Shown here: positions 3,617 through 56,143 of the stretch, piece by piece | How positions within the stretch are numbered: position 1 is the stretch's first letter | How the letters are laid out: each line of letters opens with the position of its first letter | DNA from: Pseudanabaena sp. FACHB-2040 | GTDB lineage: Bacteria; Cyanobacteriota; Cyanobacteriia; Phormidesmidales; Phormidesmidaceae | Reading direction: 5' to 3' | NCBI RefSeq assembly: GCF_014696715.1 | Contig: NZ_JACJQO010000001.1 | Span: 186,001-250,000 of the forward strand | DNA: 64,000 bases | Notes under the pieces: model-generated | Told to the model about the DNA's origin: nothing | The model's input: only the letters and a program-made list of their open reading frames with translations | Databases searched by the model: none | Made by a program: the position numbers and the translations under genes

Positions 3617-6600
3617 TTGCTAAACTTCATTGATGCCTTGCCCAACTCATCCGCTAACCCTGCACCCTTTCCAGAGAACGAAGTTGATAGATTAGCTGCC
3701 CTGCGCCGCTATAGCATTCTTGATACTCCGCCAGAAGCAGCTTTTGACCGCATTACTGCCCTGGCAGCTCGCCTGTTTAATGTGCCGATCACCCTGGTTT
3801 CGCTGGTAGATGAGTCGCGAGGTTGGTTTAAGTCGGCCTATGGCTTTGACCTACAGGAGGTGGAGCGAGATGCGACCATCTGCAGTCTGGCTCTGCTATC
3901 GGATGAGGTACTGGTTATTCCCGACACTCGGCAAGATGAGCGCTTAGCCTGCAATCCCTTTGTCCAGAGCGAATCAGGTTTACGCTTCTATGCAGGTGCG
4001 CCCCTGCTGACCCAGGATGGCTTTAACCTAGGCACCCTTTGCCTGATCGATACCCAACCCCGCCCTGCCTTGAGCGATGAGCAGGTAAGCATCTTGGCAG
4101 ACTTGGCAGCCATGGTGATGGATGAGCTGGAATTGCGGCTGGCAGCCCGTAAGATAGCCCAGCTAGATGCCGCCCTGCTGGAGGTGACGCAGGGTGTCTC
4201 TACCGCGACGGGGGAAGCTTTTTTGGCAGCATTGGCGCAGCACTTTACAAAGGCGCTGGGGGTTGATTACGCCTATATTGGCCTGATAGATGGCGACAAC
4301 CTAGAAGCGATTACTACCGCTGCTGCCTGCGCTAAGGGTGAAATCATCGAAAATTTTGGGTACTTGCTGCAAGATACGCCCTGCCGGGAAGTGCTGCTGC
4401 AGCGCAAGCTCTGCTGTTACCCCAGTGGAGTACAGGCGCTCTTTCCCCATGCGCCGCTGCTGGCCCCCTTAGGGGTAGACAGCTATGCGGCCATTCCGTT
4501 TTTTGACTCAGCTGGCACGCCGATTGGGCTACTGAGCGTGATGAACGGTAAACCTCTGGAACACGTTCAGCTAACTGAATCTCTGCTGACCATCTTTGCC
4601 CTGCGAGTGGCCACCGAGCTAGAACGGCAGCAAACCGAGGCTGCCCGACAGCAAGCGCAGCAAACGCTAGAAACCCTGATTGAACAGCGCACGAGTGAAC
4701 TCTCTCAGGCAAACCAGCAGCTCCAGCTAGAGGTGACTGAGCGACAGCAGGCCGAAGCTGCCCTGTATCAGGAACAAGAACTGCTTAAGGTGCTGCTCGA
4801 CAACGTGCAGGCGGGCATTGTAGCCTGCGACGCCGAAGGCCGGTTGACCCTGTTTAACCGGGTTGCCCGAGAGTTTCATGGCTTGCCGCCGCAGCCTTTG
4901 CCGCCAGAGCGATGGGCGGCCCACTATGATCTGTATCGGCCCGACGGCAAAACGCCACTGCCCCTAGACGAAATTCCTCTGTTCCAAGCGCTGCAGGGAC
5001 AGAGTGTGAAGAATGTTGAGATGGTAATCGCGCCGAAGCAGGGCGCTCCGCGCACGCTGCTGGCTAGCGGTCAGGTGATTGTCGATGCCCAGGGCCAGCA
5101 GCAGGGGGCTGTGGCCGTGATGCACGACATTACAGAGCGCAAGCAGGCAGAAGCAGAGCGGGCTCGGCTGAATCGGCAACAAGTTGAAGAGCAAGTTGCT
5201 CGCTTGGAGGCCGAAACTGACCAGCGCCGCTCAGCCTTTTTAGCTGATATCAGTACGGCTCTGGCGTCGTCTTTGAAATATGAGCAAACTCTGGCTAATG
5301 TAGCCGATCTGGCGGTTCCGTTTTTTGCCGACTGGTGTGCAATTGATCTGCTGCAAGACAATCGGATCATTCAACGGGTTGCAGTGGCTCATCACAACCC
5401 CGAAAAGGTTCAGCTAGCTTGGGATCTGCATCAGCGATATCCTAAAAGGCTGGAGGAGGCGGAGGGCATTGCTAAGGTTTTGCGAACCGGGCAGCCTGAA
5501 GTTATGCCGATCGTTTCCGATGCTGCATTGGCGAGCGTAGCTCAAGATGCTGAGCACCTGCGGATTTTGCGCGAACTGGGCTTAAAGTCTGCCATCGTCT
5601 CGCCCCTGATTGCCCGAGGTCAGATTTTGGGGGCTATTACCTTTGTGACAGCCGAATCGGAACGCCGCTACAGCGAAACTGACTGCATATTGGCTGAAGA
5701 TGTTGCCCATAGAGCTGCGATCGCAATTGACAATGCCCGCCTCTATCAAGAAGCCCAAAAGGCCCAGCAGGCGGCAGAACGCTCAGCCGAGCGCATTACC
5801 CGGCTGCAGTCGGTAACAGCCGCTTTATCGGAATCGCTCACCCCGGCTGAGGTGTCTGAAGTCATTGCCGATCAGGGCATGGCGGCCCTAGGGGCTGAAT
5901 TTGCCATGGTGGCCCTGCTAGATGAACGCGCCCGTGAACTGGAGGTAGTGCGGTCGGTGGGAGTTGACTCTCGTCAGCTCGAAGGCTGGCAGCGGTTTCC
6001 CCTAAGTACGGCAGTGCCTTTGGCAGAGGCCGTACGCACCGGGCAACCGATCTGGGCCGAACCGCCAGAGGTTCGAGCTGCTCGCTACCCCCACCTGGCA
6101 GCATACTATGAGCAGCACCCTCTCAAGACCTGGATCTCGGTGCCGCTGATGACCGAGGGGCGGGCAGTGGGGGGCATCTCCTTTGGGTTTATGAAGCCGC
6201 CCTATCTGGTAGAGGAGCAGCAGGCGTTTATCCTGTCGCTGGCGCAGCAGTATGCCCAAGCCATTGTCCGCACCCACCTTTACGAGGCCGAACGCGAGGC
6301 CCGCACTCAGGCTGAGTCGGCCAATCGAGTGAAAGATGAATTTCTGGCAGTTTTGTCACACGAGTTGCGATCGCCCCTCAACCCGATCATGGGCTGGGCT
6401 AAGCTACTGCGCACCCGAAAGTTAGATGCGGCCAAAACAGACCACGCGCTAGCCACGATCGAGCGCAACGCTAAGCTGCAAACCGAACTGATCGAAGACT
6501 TGCTGGATGTCTCTCGCATTCTGCAGGGCAAGCTCAGTCTCACGATGAGCCCGGTCAATCTAGCTGAGACCATTCAATCGGCCCTCGAAACCATACGATC

Positions 6601-49027: not shown

Positions 49028-49402
49028 CTAATTTTTTTGACCGCGCAGCAGTTGCTTCACCGTGTCAATCATGTCATTAGGGCGAAAGGGCTTAGCAATG
49101 TAAGCATCGGCTCCCTGCTTCATGCCCCAGTAGCGATCAAACTCTTCACTTTTAGAGGAGCAGATCACGACAGGAATATCTTGGGTGTTCGAGGTGTTTT
49201 TAATCCAGCGGCAAAGCTCATAGCCATTCATGTTAGGCATAACAATGTCGAGAACCACCAGATCGGGCGGATTGGTCTCAATTAACTGCTTGGCCTCAAC
49301 TCCATCTTTCGCCTCTACAACATTCATCCCGGCATTAATTAAAAGCCCAGCGATCATCTCACGCAGGGTTGAACTGTCATCCACAATCAAAACTGTACTC
49401 AT
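49028..49402 (-). CDS. CheY-like single-domain response regulator
   Basis: A 124-aa receiver: STVLIVDDSSTLREM (D8-D9), phospho-acceptor D52 in VVLDIVMPNMNG, CSSKSEEFD in place of the usual T/S strand-4 residue region, and the K in YIAKPFRPNDM. It has no output domain. It converges on the polysaccharide cluster and lies downstream of the DUF790 gene on the same strand, 114 bp away. The partner kinase is not in the immediate neighbourhood. Confidence 0.92.
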   Translation of the reverse strand: MSTVLIVDDSSTLREMIAGLLINAGMNVVEAKDGVEAKQLIETNPPDLVVLDIVMPNMNGYELCRWIKNTSNTQDIPVVICSSKSEEFDRYWGMKQGADAYIAKPFRPNDMIDTVKQLLRGQKN

Positions 49403-49516: not shown

Positions 49517-50758
49517 TTAGGCATCGAGTACCTCTAAGACAGCGCGAGGCTGCAGCTTCTCCTTAAACCATACAATTTTGACCGGGATTTGGTTCAAGCT
49601 CACCCCTGCCTTCTCCAGATTCAGGCGCTCAGAGACGGCCAAAATCAGGTTGTTGCGCTCAGCTTTTTGCACTTGGGCAAATTTTTTGCGCAGGTATTCA
49701 GGCCGCCAGTAGCCTACGATCTCCAGCAAATACTCTCGCCCATCGGGATGTACCAGACGAAAATCAGGAATCATGACGCTGCCAGGGATGGGCACCAGAT
49801 CTACCTCTCGCTCCAGCCGCCACTCGGTCTTACTGACCGGCCAGCGCTTAGCAAAAGACTCTTCTACCATGCTGTCATAGGGTTTGCCGGGGGGATAGTG
49901 AGACACTAGGCCGCAGGTAGAGTCCAGCGTAAAAGTCTTCTCCCGCAGCTGGTTGCTGTAGCTGTCTTTCCAGTGGAGAGTGGCCGTTAGGCTCCAGCGG
50001 GTAACATGCAGCAGGGCCGGAATCAGTTTGGCAATGTCCAACCCATAGCGAGTGCTGGGCTTGAACAAACTGGTAGGGCCATCAATGGTAACCGTGAAGC
50101 CCTGATCAGCATCTCCCTCAATGTAGGCCATTAGGCGAAACAGCTTGAGGTACTTGAACATGAGCTTGTACTCACCGGGGTCGTTGCGGTGCAGGTTGAG
50201 TACGACCTGGCTAGCCCGGTAGAAAACACCCTGTACCTGAGACAGGTTGTAGCGGTGAATCAGCACCTCTGGGGTAGGGGCCTCAAACTCAGTTAACATG
50301 CGGTTTTCCTGCAGATCAGCGTATAGGCCCTGCCGCAGATGGGCAACAGTAACCTCGCGCTCCAGTTCTTGGCTCAAGCCCTGGGCCAAAATATCTAGGT
50401 GCTTCTCGGTTGCCTGCAGGCTAGGAGCCGTTTGAGTCGCTAGGGCAAAAACCCGCTGACGCAGAATTTCCGGCTCTAGAGGGCTAACAATATCTAGGGT
50501 GCAGAAGTGGGTCTTGAGCAGGTGAGCCAGCCCGCGCTTGATGCGGTAGTTTGTGTCTTCGCCTTCGAGTTCCTGCAGTTGGCGGTTGAGATCACCCTGG
50601 GTCTGGCTAACATGGGCCTGAAACAGATCGATCAGGTCAGTCGCAATAGATCCATTGGCTGCATTCAACTCTAGCCGCCGGGGCTGAATCGAATCGCCCT
50701 GATACCGATGGATAAGCAGATCAGCCGGTAGCGTAGCAGTCGCCTCCCTCAGGTACAC
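49517..50758 (-). CDS. DUF790 family protein (Bax1-like nuclease)
   Basis: A 413-aa DUF790 member. The archaeal Bax1 of this family is a structure-specific endonuclease that binds the XPB helicase in DNA repair. Visible family features are the N-terminal REATATLPADLLIHRY and the C-terminal IPDFRLVHPDGREYLLEIVGYWRPEYLRKKFAQVQKAERN, which contains a PD...E-type nuclease core followed by K. Length fits the family. No XPB-like helicase lies in the window, so the partner would be elsewhere. It diverges from the Sua5/YrdC gene with a 45-bp gap. Confidence 0.85.
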   Translation of the reverse strand: MYLREATATLPADLLIHRYQGDSIQPRRLELNAANGSIATDLIDLFQAHVSQTQGDLNRQLQELEGEDTNYRIKRGLAHLLKTHFCTLDIVSPLEPEILRQRVFALATQTAPSLQATEKHLDILAQGLSQELEREVTVAHLRQGLYADLQENRMLTEFEAPTPEVLIHRYNLSQVQGVFYRASQVVLNLHRNDPGEYKLMFKYLKLFRLMAYIEGDADQGFTVTIDGPTSLFKPSTRYGLDIAKLIPALLHVTRWSLTATLHWKDSYSNQLREKTFTLDSTCGLVSHYPPGKPYDSMVEESFAKRWPVSKTEWRLEREVDLVPIPGSVMIPDFRLVHPDGREYLLEIVGYWRPEYLRKKFAQVQKAERNNLILAVSERLNLEKAGVSLNQIPVKIVWFKEKLQPRAVLEVLDA

Positions 50759-50803
50759 TCTCTCCTTAGCACTCTACACCGAAATTTTGTGGGAGGTTGG
50801 ACT

Positions 50804-51445
50804 ATGCCTCAAGTCTCGCTGGAGGAATTTGTTGCAGTCATAGCTCAGGGCCAGGCTCTGGGAAGTTTTGAGACCGATACGGTACCGGCGCTGGCCGCTC
50901 GACCTAACTCCAGCCACCTAATCTACAAAGCCAAACAGCGTGGCCAAGACAAGCCTCTAATTTTGATGGCAGCAGCCTTAGAAGATCTGCTGCCCTACGT
51001 AACCGGCACTGCCGCAGAAATTGACATTTGGCGGCAGGTGACAGAGCAGTTTTGGCCAGGGCCGCTGACTTTAGTGCTGCCCGCCAGCGACCAAGCACCC
51101 GCCGCCATGAATCCTCAGCAGACAGGGACCCTGGGGATTCGGGTGCCTAACCATGATTTGGCCCGCTACCTACTGGCTCGCACTGGTCCCTTGGCCACTA
51201 CTAGCGCTAACCCATCGGGCCAGCCGCCGCTGCAGACCCTAGCCGAGATCGAGGCTAAGTTTCCTGACGTTTTGGTGCTGTCGACCCAGGCCCAGCAGCA
51301 GATTGAGCAGTGCCTCGGCTCAGCCCCTACAGCGCCCAGTGTGTCGGGTATGCCCTCGACGGTAGCCCGCTGGCAAGGAGGAACTTGGGAAATTTTACGG
51401 CAGGGGCCGGTGCGGCTGGAACCGCCTACAGGTTCTCATGTCTAA
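50804..51445 (+). CDS. L-threonylcarbamoyladenylate synthase (Sua5/YciO/YrdC family)
   Basis: A 213-aa YrdC-fold protein, which makes threonylcarbamoyl-AMP from threonine, bicarbonate and ATP for the tRNA t6A modification. Motifs: SFETDTVPALAA (normally PTDTVYGL), the KQRGQDKPLIL lysine-rich ATP/threonine site, WPGPLTLVLPAS, GTLGIRVPNH and PLATTSANPSGQPP. Without the C-terminal Sua5 domain it is the short type. The ATG 50804, with GGGAGG about 9 bases upstream, is chosen over GTG 50789. Confidence 0.9.
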   Translation: MPQVSLEEFVAVIAQGQALGSFETDTVPALAARPNSSHLIYKAKQRGQDKPLILMAAALEDLLPYVTGTAAEIDIWRQVTEQFWPGPLTLVLPASDQAPAAMNPQQTGTLGIRVPNHDLARYLLARTGPLATTSANPSGQPPLQTLAEIEAKFPDVLVLSTQAQQQIEQCLGSAPTAPSVSGMPSTVARWQGGTWEILRQGPVRLEPPTGSHV

Positions 51446-51601: not shown

Positions 51602-52519
51602 ATGGCAGCAGCAGCGCTCGTAGCCGGACTAACACTAGGTGGATTAGCCGGATGGTGGCTGGGCCAGCGCCGAAAAACCGCTGACGCCTCGCTGTCTTCA
51701 GCCCCAGTGGCCACCGCTCAAGCAACGTCTGAAGAGTCAGATACCGCGCTAGCCTACCAGCGAGCGCTGGCCTTGGCTCAATACCAGGCCGGCTTTTTGG
51801 CCAGCACCTCCCATGAGTTGAGATCGCCCATCAACCAGATCATCAGCCTGCATCAGCTGATTTTAGAAGACCTGTGTGATGGCCCTGAGGAGGAACGGCT
51901 TTTCCTAGGCCAGGCCCAAGAAGCTATCACTAAAGTCTTGAAAAACCTAGACCTCCTGATCTCAATCTCTAAGCTAGAAGTCGGTCGAACCATTCCTGAA
52001 CTGCAGCCGTTTTCTATAGCCGCCATTTTTTCTAAAGTGGAAAAATGGGTTGCAATGCAGGCCGCTAACCGTGGCTGCCGTCTAAAGATTATTGATCCTG
52101 ACGACGCTCTTTATGGCTACGGCGATCCTCAGTGGCTGCAGCAGGGGCTGGTGCTGCTGGTGGAGAGTGCGATCGCAGCCGAATGCGGCCAAATTTTCCT
52201 TGAGGCTTATCCAGCAGATGCTAAAACGCTCACCCTTGTCCTTAAACACGACGGTTCCCCCAACACCTGGCAGGCTACCTCCGAGCCCTCTGCAGAATCG
52301 AGCCAGCCAGCCCCAGCTGAGGTGCTACAAGGACTTTCTCCGGCATTTCGCCAGCGGTTAGCAAACCAGATTTTAGCCAGGATGGGAGGCGAGGTGACCC
52401 TCTCTCCAGTTTCTTCAAATGGGTCGGAACTGCCCCAGGAGAACGAAAACTACACCTGTTTTTACATCTCTTTGCCCAGTATTTCTCTAGCGGATTACGC
52501 CGACTCCGAAATTCCTTGA
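51602..52519 (+). CDS. Membrane-anchored degenerate histidine kinase
   Basis: A 305-aa protein. Residues 3-22 form one membrane helix (AAALVAGLTLGGLAGWWLGQ). The HisKA domain is intact with H71 in STSHELRSP. The HATPase half lacks the N box: where NLL.NA.K. is expected it reads GLVLLVESAIAA, and there is no D.G.G motif or G.GLGL box. It cannot bind ATP by the usual rules, so it is probably a phosphotransfer or scaffold protein. The start ATG has GAGGG about 6-10 bases upstream. It follows the Sua5 gene by 156 bp. Confidence 0.82.
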   Translation: MAAAALVAGLTLGGLAGWWLGQRRKTADASLSSAPVATAQATSEESDTALAYQRALALAQYQAGFLASTSHELRSPINQIISLHQLILEDLCDGPEEERLFLGQAQEAITKVLKNLDLLISISKLEVGRTIPELQPFSIAAIFSKVEKWVAMQAANRGCRLKIIDPDDALYGYGDPQWLQQGLVLLVESAIAAECGQIFLEAYPADAKTLTLVLKHDGSPNTWQATSEPSAESSQPAPAEVLQGLSPAFRQRLANQILARMGGEVTLSPVSSNGSELPQENENYTCFYISLPSISLADYADSEIP

Positions 52520-53045: not shown

Positions 53046-53573
53046 TCAACCGGGCCTGATCGACAAGATCCAGTCCCACCGGGGCGCTATTGTTTCATAA
53101 GGTTCACCATTTGAACCAGCTGTTGTTAGATCATCAATCAGAACCTGATGACCGACCGCTTGCAGCAACCTCTTCAGCTCTTGAGCGAACTGCTGAGCTA
53201 CCGGATTAGGGCTGTGGTGGGTAATTTGGATGCGTCGGCCGTGCTGCCACTCTGGCCTTAGTCCCAGATGGAGCATCGGCAACTCTTCATAACTGTTCAT
53301 ACGACGGATAACAGCTCCCCGCACACGTTTTTTACTCACCTTTTCTGCCAGTACGTCTGAAAGCTTACGCCAGAGCTTGTAGCCTACTGATTTCTCGACA
53401 TACTGAGGGTTCAATGGATAGATCTCTTCATAGGTCTGACCGCGCCAAGAGCCTATAAATATTTGCCTTTCTAGATCATTGAGGCGATGTCCTTTTTCGC
53501 TATAGAGCAGGTTGTCAACCCAGGTAAGTGCTGCTTCAGCGGTCAATTCATGAAAAGGGCAAGGGGTATTCAT
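53046..53573 (-). CDS. vMAP N-terminal HTH-domain protein, copy A
   Basis: A 175-aa protein whose first 95 residues match the HTH domain found at the N-terminus of vWA-MoxR-associated (vMAP) and STAND-type cyanobacterial signalling proteins: LTDVE-like LNDLERQIFIGSWRGQTYEEIYPLNPQYVEKSVGYKLWRKLS and KKRVRGAVIRR. The C-terminal 50 residues (SPNPVAQQFAQELKRLLQAVGHQVLIDDL) look like the first strand and helix of a TIR-like effector that then stops at residue 175; this reading is tentative. Without a vWA, NACHT or AAA partner domain it is a shortened or regulatory version. Copy B lies about 1.07 kb away. Confidence 0.75.
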   Translation of the reverse strand: MNTPCPFHELTAEAALTWVDNLLYSEKGHRLNDLERQIFIGSWRGQTYEEIYPLNPQYVEKSVGYKLWRKLSDVLAEKVSKKRVRGAVIRRMNSYEELPMLHLGLRPEWQHGRRIQITHHSPNPVAQQFAQELKRLLQAVGHQVLIDDLTTAGSNGEPYETIAPRWDWILSIRPG

Positions 53574-54201: not shown

Positions 54202-54645
54202 TTACCTCCCAGTTTTGCGGTTATCCCTATTTTGACGCAAACTCACACGTAATTGATATGACTGCTGAGCCACCGGATTGGGGCTGTGCTGGGTAATTCG
54301 AATGCGTCGACCGTGCTGCCACTCTGGCTTTAGCCCCAGATGAAGTATCGGCAACTCTTCATAGCTGTTCATGCGACGGATAACGGCTTCCCGCACACGT
54401 TTTTTACTCACCTTTTCTGCCAGTACGTCTGAAAGCTTACGCCAGAGCTTGTAGCCTACTGATTTCTCGACATATTGAGGGTTCAGTGGATAGATCTCTT
54501 CATAGGTCTGACCGCGCCAGGAGCCTATGAATATTTGCCTTTCCAGATCACTGAGGCGATGTCCTTTTTCGCTATAGAGCAGGTTGTCAACCCAGGTAAG
54601 TGCTGCTTCAGCAGTCAATTCATGAAAGGGGCAAGGGGTATTCAT
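54202..54645 (-). CDS. vMAP N-terminal HTH-domain protein, copy B (C-terminally replaced)
   Basis: A 147-aa paralogue of the protein at 53046-53573. The first 125 residues are nearly identical, with the same MNTPCPFHELTAEAALTWVD start and HTH core. It then departs exactly where the DNA duplication ends (after NPVAQQ) and finishes in an unrelated tail, SYQLRVSLRQNRDNRKTGR. So copy B looks like a truncated duplicate that picked up a random tail. It may still be expressed as an HTH-only protein. Confidence 0.7.
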   Translation of the reverse strand: MNTPCPFHELTAEAALTWVDNLLYSEKGHRLSDLERQIFIGSWRGQTYEEIYPLNPQYVEKSVGYKLWRKLSDVLAEKVSKKRVREAVIRRMNSYEELPILHLGLKPEWQHGRRIRITQHSPNPVAQQSYQLRVSLRQNRDNRKTGR

Positions 54646-55102: not shown

Positions 55103-55192
55103 CCGGCAAGGTATGTTCATTAACTATCCGTTGTGCGACTAACCCTGTAAGAGATGCGGCCTGGATTTTGGCATTCAACGGAGGTAACAAAA

Positions 55193-56143
55193 ATGGCTGC
55201 CCAGTATTTCTCAAATTCAGCATTTTTAGAATTCCTACATCAAGAATTTTTAGCGTTATTTGGCGGGTCAGCTCGAATCTATTGGCACAGTTTCATGGAA
55301 CTGGCTGAGAGCGTGCTAGATGCGATCGCAAATTCCGATGCGCCCTACCACAACCTTGAACACACTCAGCAGGTGCTAACCGTAGGCCAATTGCTAATCC
55401 AGGGCCAGCACCTTTACAGCAGAGCCGTCAACCCTAGTGACTGGCTGAACGTGATGGTAGCCCTGCTGTGCCATGACATCGGCTATCTGCGCGGCGTTTG
55501 CCAAGGCGACGACTGCGCTAATGGCCGCTACAGCAGTGGGAAACCCGGTCAGTTCGCTGACCTGTCAACGGGCAAAACCGATGCCTGCTTGGCCCCCTAC
55601 CACGTTGATCGGGGTCAGCAGTTTATCGCCACAACACTGCACAACCACCCCCTAATAGATTTAGAGAGCGTATTGACCTACATTGAGCTGACTCGCTTTC
55701 CGGTTCCTGAAGGCGAGCTGTACCAAGACACAATGGGCTTTCCTGGCCTGTGTCGGGCGGCTGATTTAATCGGCCAATTGAGCGACCCGTGCTATCTAAA
55801 AAAGCTGCCAGCCCTTTACTGTGAATTTGAGGAAACGGGGATGAACCAAACCCTGGGCTACCGATCAGCAGCAGATCTGCGGGCCAGCTACCCCCACTTT
55901 TACTGGAGCGTGGTTTTTCCCTACGTTCGTGGCAGCCTACGCTACCTGGCAGCCACGCCTGCCGGACGGCAAACGATTGCTCGTCTCTATACCAATGTCT
56001 ACCTAGTAGAGCTAGAACAGCGCCCAGACGAAATGCCCACCGAAATCAAGCGGTTTCAGCCTGACCTCTTTGAAAGCTCTCCGGGTTCGTCTAGCTTGAT
56101 CTTTGCTGTTGACCTATTCAGGCAAAGCCTTATAAGGTGCTAA
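55193..56143 (+). CDS. HD-domain metalloprotein (Npun_R2479 family)
   Basis: A 316-aa HD-fold protein. The metal-binding set is visible as YHNLEHTQQVL (H..EH), then LLCHDIGYLRG (the HD pair), and later TLHNHPLI. A Cys/Gly-rich insertion (VCQGDDCANGRYSSGKPG) follows the HD motif. Such proteins are metal-dependent phosphohydrolases or cyclic-nucleotide phosphodiesterases, but no substrate is assigned for this cyanobacterial family. ATG 55193 has GGAGGT about 7 bases upstream and replaces an earlier possible ATG at 55154. Confidence 0.85.
   Translation: MAAQYFSNSAFLEFLHQEFLALFGGSARIYWHSFMELAESVLDAIANSDAPYHNLEHTQQVLTVGQLLIQGQHLYSRAVNPSDWLNVMVALLCHDIGYLRGVCQGDDCANGRYSSGKPGQFADLSTGKTDACLAPYHVDRGQQFIATTLHNHPLIDLESVLTYIELTRFPVPEGELYQDTMGFPGLCRAADLIGQLSDPCYLKKLPALYCEFEETGMNQTLGYRSAADLRASYPHFYWSVVFPYVRGSLRYLAATPAGRQTIARLYTNVYLVELEQRPDEMPTEIKRFQPDLFESSPGSSSLIFAVDLFRQSLIRC

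Follow-up and report, generated by a model that had tools for sequence, protein, structure and literature searches.

A cyanobacterial histidine kinase family that has lost its ATP-site motifs and kept its phospho-acceptor histidine

Introduction

RetS and DivL are pseudo-kinases known as allosteric partners and not as relays; DivL carries a tyrosine in place of the phospho-acceptor histidine, and RetS carries a large sensor region and C-terminal receiver domains. Other degenerate kinases relay phosphate themselves. ChpT, according to the accessible text of PMC3433190, is unable to use ATP; its Bergerat domain is atypical, and it shuttles phosphate on His33. The accessible text of PMC5898713 likewise describes PhyT, which has a degenerate ATPase domain, as relaying phosphate in the order SdrG-PhyT-PhyR, tested against H341A, and counts Spo0B of Bacillus, a dimeric histidine phosphotransferase, among the degenerate kinases.

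Here we analyze a window of 64,000 nucleotides from the cyanobacterium Pseudanabaena sp. FACHB-2040 (contig NZ_JACJQO010000001.1, positions 186,001 to 250,000) that encodes a degenerate histidine kinase, which we term pHK (Table 1). Judging by its sequence and a structure prediction, pHK shares with proteins of the ChpT/Spo0B/PhyT type a DHp histidine and a CA-like domain without ATP-binding motifs. With functional HisKA kinases it shares the HisKA region and the histidine, but it lacks the N-box asparagine, the DxGxG motif and the GxGxG motif.

Results

In the window pHK, HisKA is the sole Pfam match above cut-off (30.6 bits versus 26.9, residues 63-126), and H71 sits in the motif H-E-L-R-S-P. 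The Pfam scan found neither HATPase_c nor Hpt (PF01627) in this protein, and the second result rules out membership in the Hpt family. In one alignment with 20 ordinary kinases, the N-box Lys and Phe positions are occupied by Ala192 and Ala193, the G1 D-x-G-x-G position reads H216-D-G218-S-P220, and the G2 G-x-G-x-G position reads S246-P-A248-F-R250. Other database names were discarded: NCBIfam suggested CreC, LuxQ, BarA and others at scores far below cut-off, and a Pfam match to TEX13B, also below cut-off, was taken as chance.

Table 1. Features of the pHK locus, in coordinates of the window.
Feature	Position	Strand	Evidence
CheY-like receiver, candidate partner, not supported as conserved	49028..49402	-	Pfam, locus survey
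Sua5/YrdC/TsaC-like gene directly upstream of pHK; conserved family neighbour	50789..51445	+	Pfam, NCBIfam, locus survey
pHK, degenerate histidine kinase (DHp + non-canonical CA domain), 305 aa	51602..52519	+	Pfam, alignment, model
Predicted N-terminal (membrane) helix, residues 3-24; family conservation absent	51608..51673	+	model, hydropathy
DHp/HisKA region, residues 55-130; family mean pairwise identity 59%	51764..51991	+	Pfam, alignment
H71 codon, phospho-acceptor; His in 130/130 orthologues	51812..51814	+	alignment
CA domain, degenerate Bergerat-type, residues 131-293	51992..52480	+	alignment, model
N-box remnant, residues 185-193; catalytic Asn replaced by Ser189	52154..52180	+	alignment
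G1 remnant, residues 216-220, without DxGxG	52247..52261	+	alignment
G2 remnant, residues 246-251, without GxGxG	52337..52354	+	alignment

We gathered 152 pHK loci scoring 200 bits or more against a family profile (169.7 for the top-scoring ordinary kinase in the set), removed identical sequences, and aligned the remaining 130 distinct orthologues with the 20 next-best-scoring ordinary kinases. Against another, smaller family profile, built with the window pHK among its members, the window pHK scores 308.5 bits. The phospho-acceptor histidine is present in every orthologue and in all 20 ordinary kinases. In contrast, the N-box asparagine is found in 3/130 orthologues versus 20/20 ordinary kinases, the N-box Lys/Arg in 2/130 (Lys in 20/20 ordinary kinases), and both DxGxG and GxGxG are aligned in 0/130 versus 20/20. 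Counting the patterns free of any alignment, we found D.G.G in one orthologue and the G2 pattern in none. Because all 130 distinct orthologues are in the same state, the loss of the boxes is more than chance, and the identical losses rule out local decay or a pseudogene. A preliminary description of the window, made from its sequence, had proposed a HisKA protein with an intact H71 and missing ATPase boxes, and had set as conditions that H71 be conserved across orthologues and that none of these have an intact ATPase region; the histidine is invariant, no family member with intact ATP boxes was seen among the 130, and both parts of the proposal are borne out in the window protein and in the family. 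Since 80 named loci had been found with two search patterns, one of which includes the histidine, the His count in that set is biased; among 67 distinct loci independent of those patterns, the histidine was identified in 66 by regular expression and in the 67th (L153) by eye.

Conservation extends beyond the histidine within the DHp region. R74 and P76 are both kept in 130/130 orthologues, as are Q85, I87 and L91 on the DHp surface after the histidine. In this kinase class, the HExxT/N motif has at +4 a residue that serves phosphatase action; this residue is T/N in all 20 ordinary kinases, and S, A or G in all 130 orthologues. E72 is kept in 125 orthologues and replaced by valine in five (L084, L091, L094, L103 and L106) with the histidine intact. 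The acid after the histidine is needed for kinase action, so these five proteins retain the histidine although kinase chemistry is doubly lost. Mean pairwise identity, read as a pattern and not a rate because the control set differs and is smaller, is 59% in the family versus 68% in ordinary kinases for DHp, 38% versus 42% for the first half of the CA domain, 22% versus 62% for the lid, and 36% versus 66% for the G2 half. Compared with the ordinary kinases, the family has lost conservation mainly in the lid and the G2 half and much less in DHp, so that constraint is gone from the nucleotide lid and retained in DHp. The preliminary description had suggested a HATPase_c profile search; this domain has no Pfam match in the window protein but is recognized at E <= 0.1 in 36/63 orthologues, with a best value of 1.5e-6.

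Searching 59 related genomes at the protein level identified mostly one small pHK orthologue each, besides many ordinary kinases. In the organism's own family, 33 of 36 genomes (its own included) have a small-frame pHK match below 1e-30; the three that do not (G001, G007 and G029) have listed completeness of 78, 90 and 61%. Across 386 genomes of the phylum, a profile search places the family in 103, all of one class, as counted by eye: 102 places score at least 174.7 bits, and the last, a 330-aa frame in G046 at 156.9 bits, lies barely above the first long kinase (156.6), from which only a larger profile separates it (205 versus 169.7). The listed small-genome f2 genomes gave no family-grade match in this search. 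In a tree of 66 sequences, comprising 46 of the 130 family members (random picks plus the window pHK) and the 20 ordinary kinases, family and controls split at one branch with support of 100/100; for these sequences, a single branch falls short of proving one-time loss across wider kinase sampling.

The preliminary description also gave the protein one membrane helix and suggested that it is membrane-bound. For the window pHK a helix is plausible, with residues 3-24 predicted as helical and a best 19-residue hydropathy of 1.57. As a family trait, membrane attachment does not hold: a hydrophobic N-terminal stretch is found in about 68 to 77 of 130 orthologues (19-residue hydropathy of at least 1.2 or at least 1.0), and many orthologues begin just 35-40 residues ahead of the histidine. 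With the N-terminal helix optional, we rejected membrane sensing as the family function. Several loci carry longer frames. In L056, a Sua5-like protein and pHK (801-1667) share one 470-residue frame, which may be a genuine fusion or reflect loss of a stop codon, and in L028 (586 residues) and L105 (614 residues; 4484-6325) a ROK-type sugar kinase, labeled by eye, precedes pHK in one frame.

We performed an AlphaFold2 structure prediction of the window pHK with an alignment of 63 sequences (the window pHK and 62 of the 78 named orthologues). The model (mean pLDDT 86.1, pTM 0.78) places a low-confidence N-terminal helix at residues 3-24, DHp helices at 38-88 and 95-127, and then an alpha/beta domain in which residues 221-240, within the lid, are modeled at lower confidence. 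The model folds like a kinase core, with DHp and a Bergerat-like domain. The preliminary description had spoken of lost ATPase motifs; this is right for the boxes, but an ATPase-like domain persists and is predicted to fold, so the domain itself was not deleted. In Foldseek, DivL ranks first and many ordinary kinases come next. VIA-align comparisons gave Z 18.2 to CusS (rmsd 2.7, 204 aligned), 17.9 to DivL (rmsd 4.6, 211 aligned), about 17 to HK853, and 14.5 to RetS (rmsd 5.7, 194 aligned). Because they hold many ordinary kinases, these rankings do not discriminate between functions. A sequence-profile search against solved chains listed first GacS (7z8n, 2.8e-32), the RetS-GacS co-complex (7n0e, 6e-31) and RetS (about 1e-30).

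The Sua5/YrdC-like gene ends 156 bases before the window pHK. A Sua5-like gene lies upstream on the same strand in 63 of the 78 named loci that have a clear ORF, within 500 bases in 62; further upstream are PrmC in 28/78 and Tic22 in 27/78. A GNAT gene converges from downstream in 38/78, often with overlapping 3' ends; in L146 (6793-8143) and similar loci the overlap is about 30 nt. No converging GNAT gene was seen beside pHK in the window. PrmC, Tic22 and GNAT labels were assigned by eye, and Tic22 is backed by a match to Alr0114. This protein is Tic22 of Anabaena PCC 7120 in the accessible text of PMC4103569, which gives its N-terminal sequence; that sequence matches the Tic22 start in two genomes, G595 and G601, at 98% and 95%. 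Both genomes have the order GNAT-Tic22-PrmC-Sua5-pHK followed by a converging GNAT gene, so that pHK is the third gene after tic22. The pHK proteins of these two Anabaena PCC 7120 relatives (L146 and L147) are 36-38% identical to the window pHK and lack the same boxes.

From this gene order and the orthologues of the Anabaena PCC 7120 relatives, the best explanation is that the pHK family is that of Alr0117. We take hepN to be the gene name of Alr0117. What Alr0117 shares with the family is its place in these two close relatives, third after tic22 (alr0114). The window organism, in contrast, lies outside the family of those relatives (f1 versus f28), and its flanks differ: the window retains only Sua5-pHK from the order Tic22-PrmC-Sua5-pHK. 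A published title terms Alr0117 of Anabaena sp. PCC 7120 a histidine kinase, whereas the pHK family is without ATP-binding boxes. The accessible text of PMC12584617 places hepN among the heterocyst envelope genes.

The CheY-like receiver on the other strand had been put forward as a possible partner of pHK. The locus survey does not support it: a close homologue (>75% identity) lies near pHK in 2/80 loci (L044 at -2682 and L040 at +8244), any receiver match at E <= 1e-5 in 9/80, and we rejected it as a conserved partner. The genome holds 139 receiver matches, so a receiver within a few kilobases is uninformative. It also encodes one free-standing 120-aa Hpt frame and has eight further Hpt matches in larger frames. 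Adjoining the CheY-like receiver, a DUF790 gene (49517-50758, minus strand) matches archaeal endonuclease Bax1 models below cut-offs; this pair recurs only in L044 among the 80 loci. On the other side, right after pHK, 53046-53573 and 54202-54645 (minus strand) are near-copies of one ORF and its flanks, with repeats of 300, 224 and 77 nt that are 82-89% identical at a spacing of about 1071; neither ORF has a Pfam or NCBIfam match. Further on, 55154-56143 encodes an HD-domain metalloprotein that scores 332 bits against the Npun_R2479 model, below its cut-off of 400.

Discussion

We propose, with moderate confidence, that pHK represents an old, conserved cyanobacterial family derived from a HisKA-type kinase that has lost the use of ATP, kept its phospho-acceptor, and acts as a phospho-histidine transfer protein built on a DHp dimer. 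In this mechanism, pHK would dimerize through DHp, and H71 would be loaded either by a phosphorylated receiver or, in trans, by a partner kinase, and would then hand the phosphoryl group to a second receiver. pHK would be a histidine phosphotransfer protein made from a dead kinase, as in ChpT, Spo0B and PhyT. A phosphoryl relay is the simplest mechanism for a protein that has lost its nucleotide site but still has its acceptor. The suggestion in the preliminary description of a phosphotransfer or inhibitory partner fits the evidence best, apart from its being membrane-bound, which is not a family trait.

The precedents of ChpT and PhyT count in favor of a relay design. ChpT of Caulobacter, as far as the accessible text describes it, likewise joins a DHp hairpin with a phosphate-shuttling histidine to a Bergerat-like domain in which ATP is not used; it comes from another phylum, and the window pHK has an extra, optional N-terminal helix. 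The likeness proposed here is one of design. PhyT/PhyP of Sphingomonas, on a similarly partial account, are comparable to pHK as membrane-anchored histidine kinase relatives whose ATPase domain is degenerate and which relay phosphate, as pHK is proposed to do. Their DHp motif is HRxxN and they have a sensor domain that is putatively periplasmic, where pHK has HELRSP and no sensor domain. Spo0B is not among the sequence or fold matches listed for pHK, and ChpT is also absent among the fold matches listed, which does not amount to an exclusion. Several points count against a relay. No receiver gene is a conserved neighbor of pHK, the Hpt frames in the genome mean that relay proteins are not otherwise lacking, the nearest solved chains by sequence include GacS, RetS and DivL, and the conserved histidine could also serve docking.

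The main alternative, possible but doubtful, is that pHK is an allosteric partner like RetS and DivL, whose DHp would assemble with a true kinase as a heterodimer or four-helix arrangement and up- or down-regulate it, with the histidine as shared surface or phosphorylated in trans. The whole DHp-CA fold is common to all three proteins, RetS and DivL rank high in structure and profile searches, and GacS, the RetS-GacS co-complex and RetS among the best profile matches, DivL as the top fold match, and the better conservation of DHp than of CA would all fit such a role. However, the structure rankings are non-discriminating, pHK is a 305-aa stand-alone core with HisKA only and none of the large sensor and receiver parts of RetS, and unlike DivL it keeps its histidine throughout. 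The balance tips to a relay because this histidine is invariant and survives loss of the next acid.

We consider it unlikely that pHK binds a receiver without phosphotransfer and so serves one response regulator as sink, brake or phosphatase. The strong conservation of Q85, I87 and L91 on the DHp face after the histidine is as expected for docking, but the +4 phosphatase residue is lost in every orthologue and the adjacent acid in five, and this role leaves the invariance of the histidine unexplained. A still-active kinase with an unconventional ATP site is very improbable: a Bergerat-like fold is still predicted, HATPase_c is recognized at E <= 0.1 in over half of the members searched and E72 is mostly retained, but the N-box residues are nearly gone, DxGxG and GxGxG are absent throughout, and lid conservation is lost.

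The phosphotransfer reading can be carried further, though only as a speculation that we rate as rather doubtful: cyanobacteria may have evolved their own relay of the Spo0B/ChpT type independently of Bacillus and Caulobacter, and so early that it could spread across much of the class, and in heterocyst formers it may have been recruited for development, with HepN in the middle of a phosphorelay, for example HepK to DevR to HepN to HenR, mirroring Kin-Spo0F-Spo0B-Spo0A. We assume here that HepK, the stand-alone receiver DevR and the output regulator HenR have roles in heterocyst development.

The conversion of a kinase to a relay is of a kind already known, and the Alr0117 family may be a further case. 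Our literature search, mostly without subscription papers, found no publication that reads this family as pseudo-kinases, although such a reading may be in print. Going by a published title, Alr0117, a heterocyst development gene, has been presented for some two decades as the gene of a histidine kinase. If no member of the family can use ATP, the question would move from what the protein senses to who phosphorylates pHK, or whom it holds. If true, the family would add one more independent instance of a kinase that became a relay protein, and its 130 orthologues would show which residues were kept.
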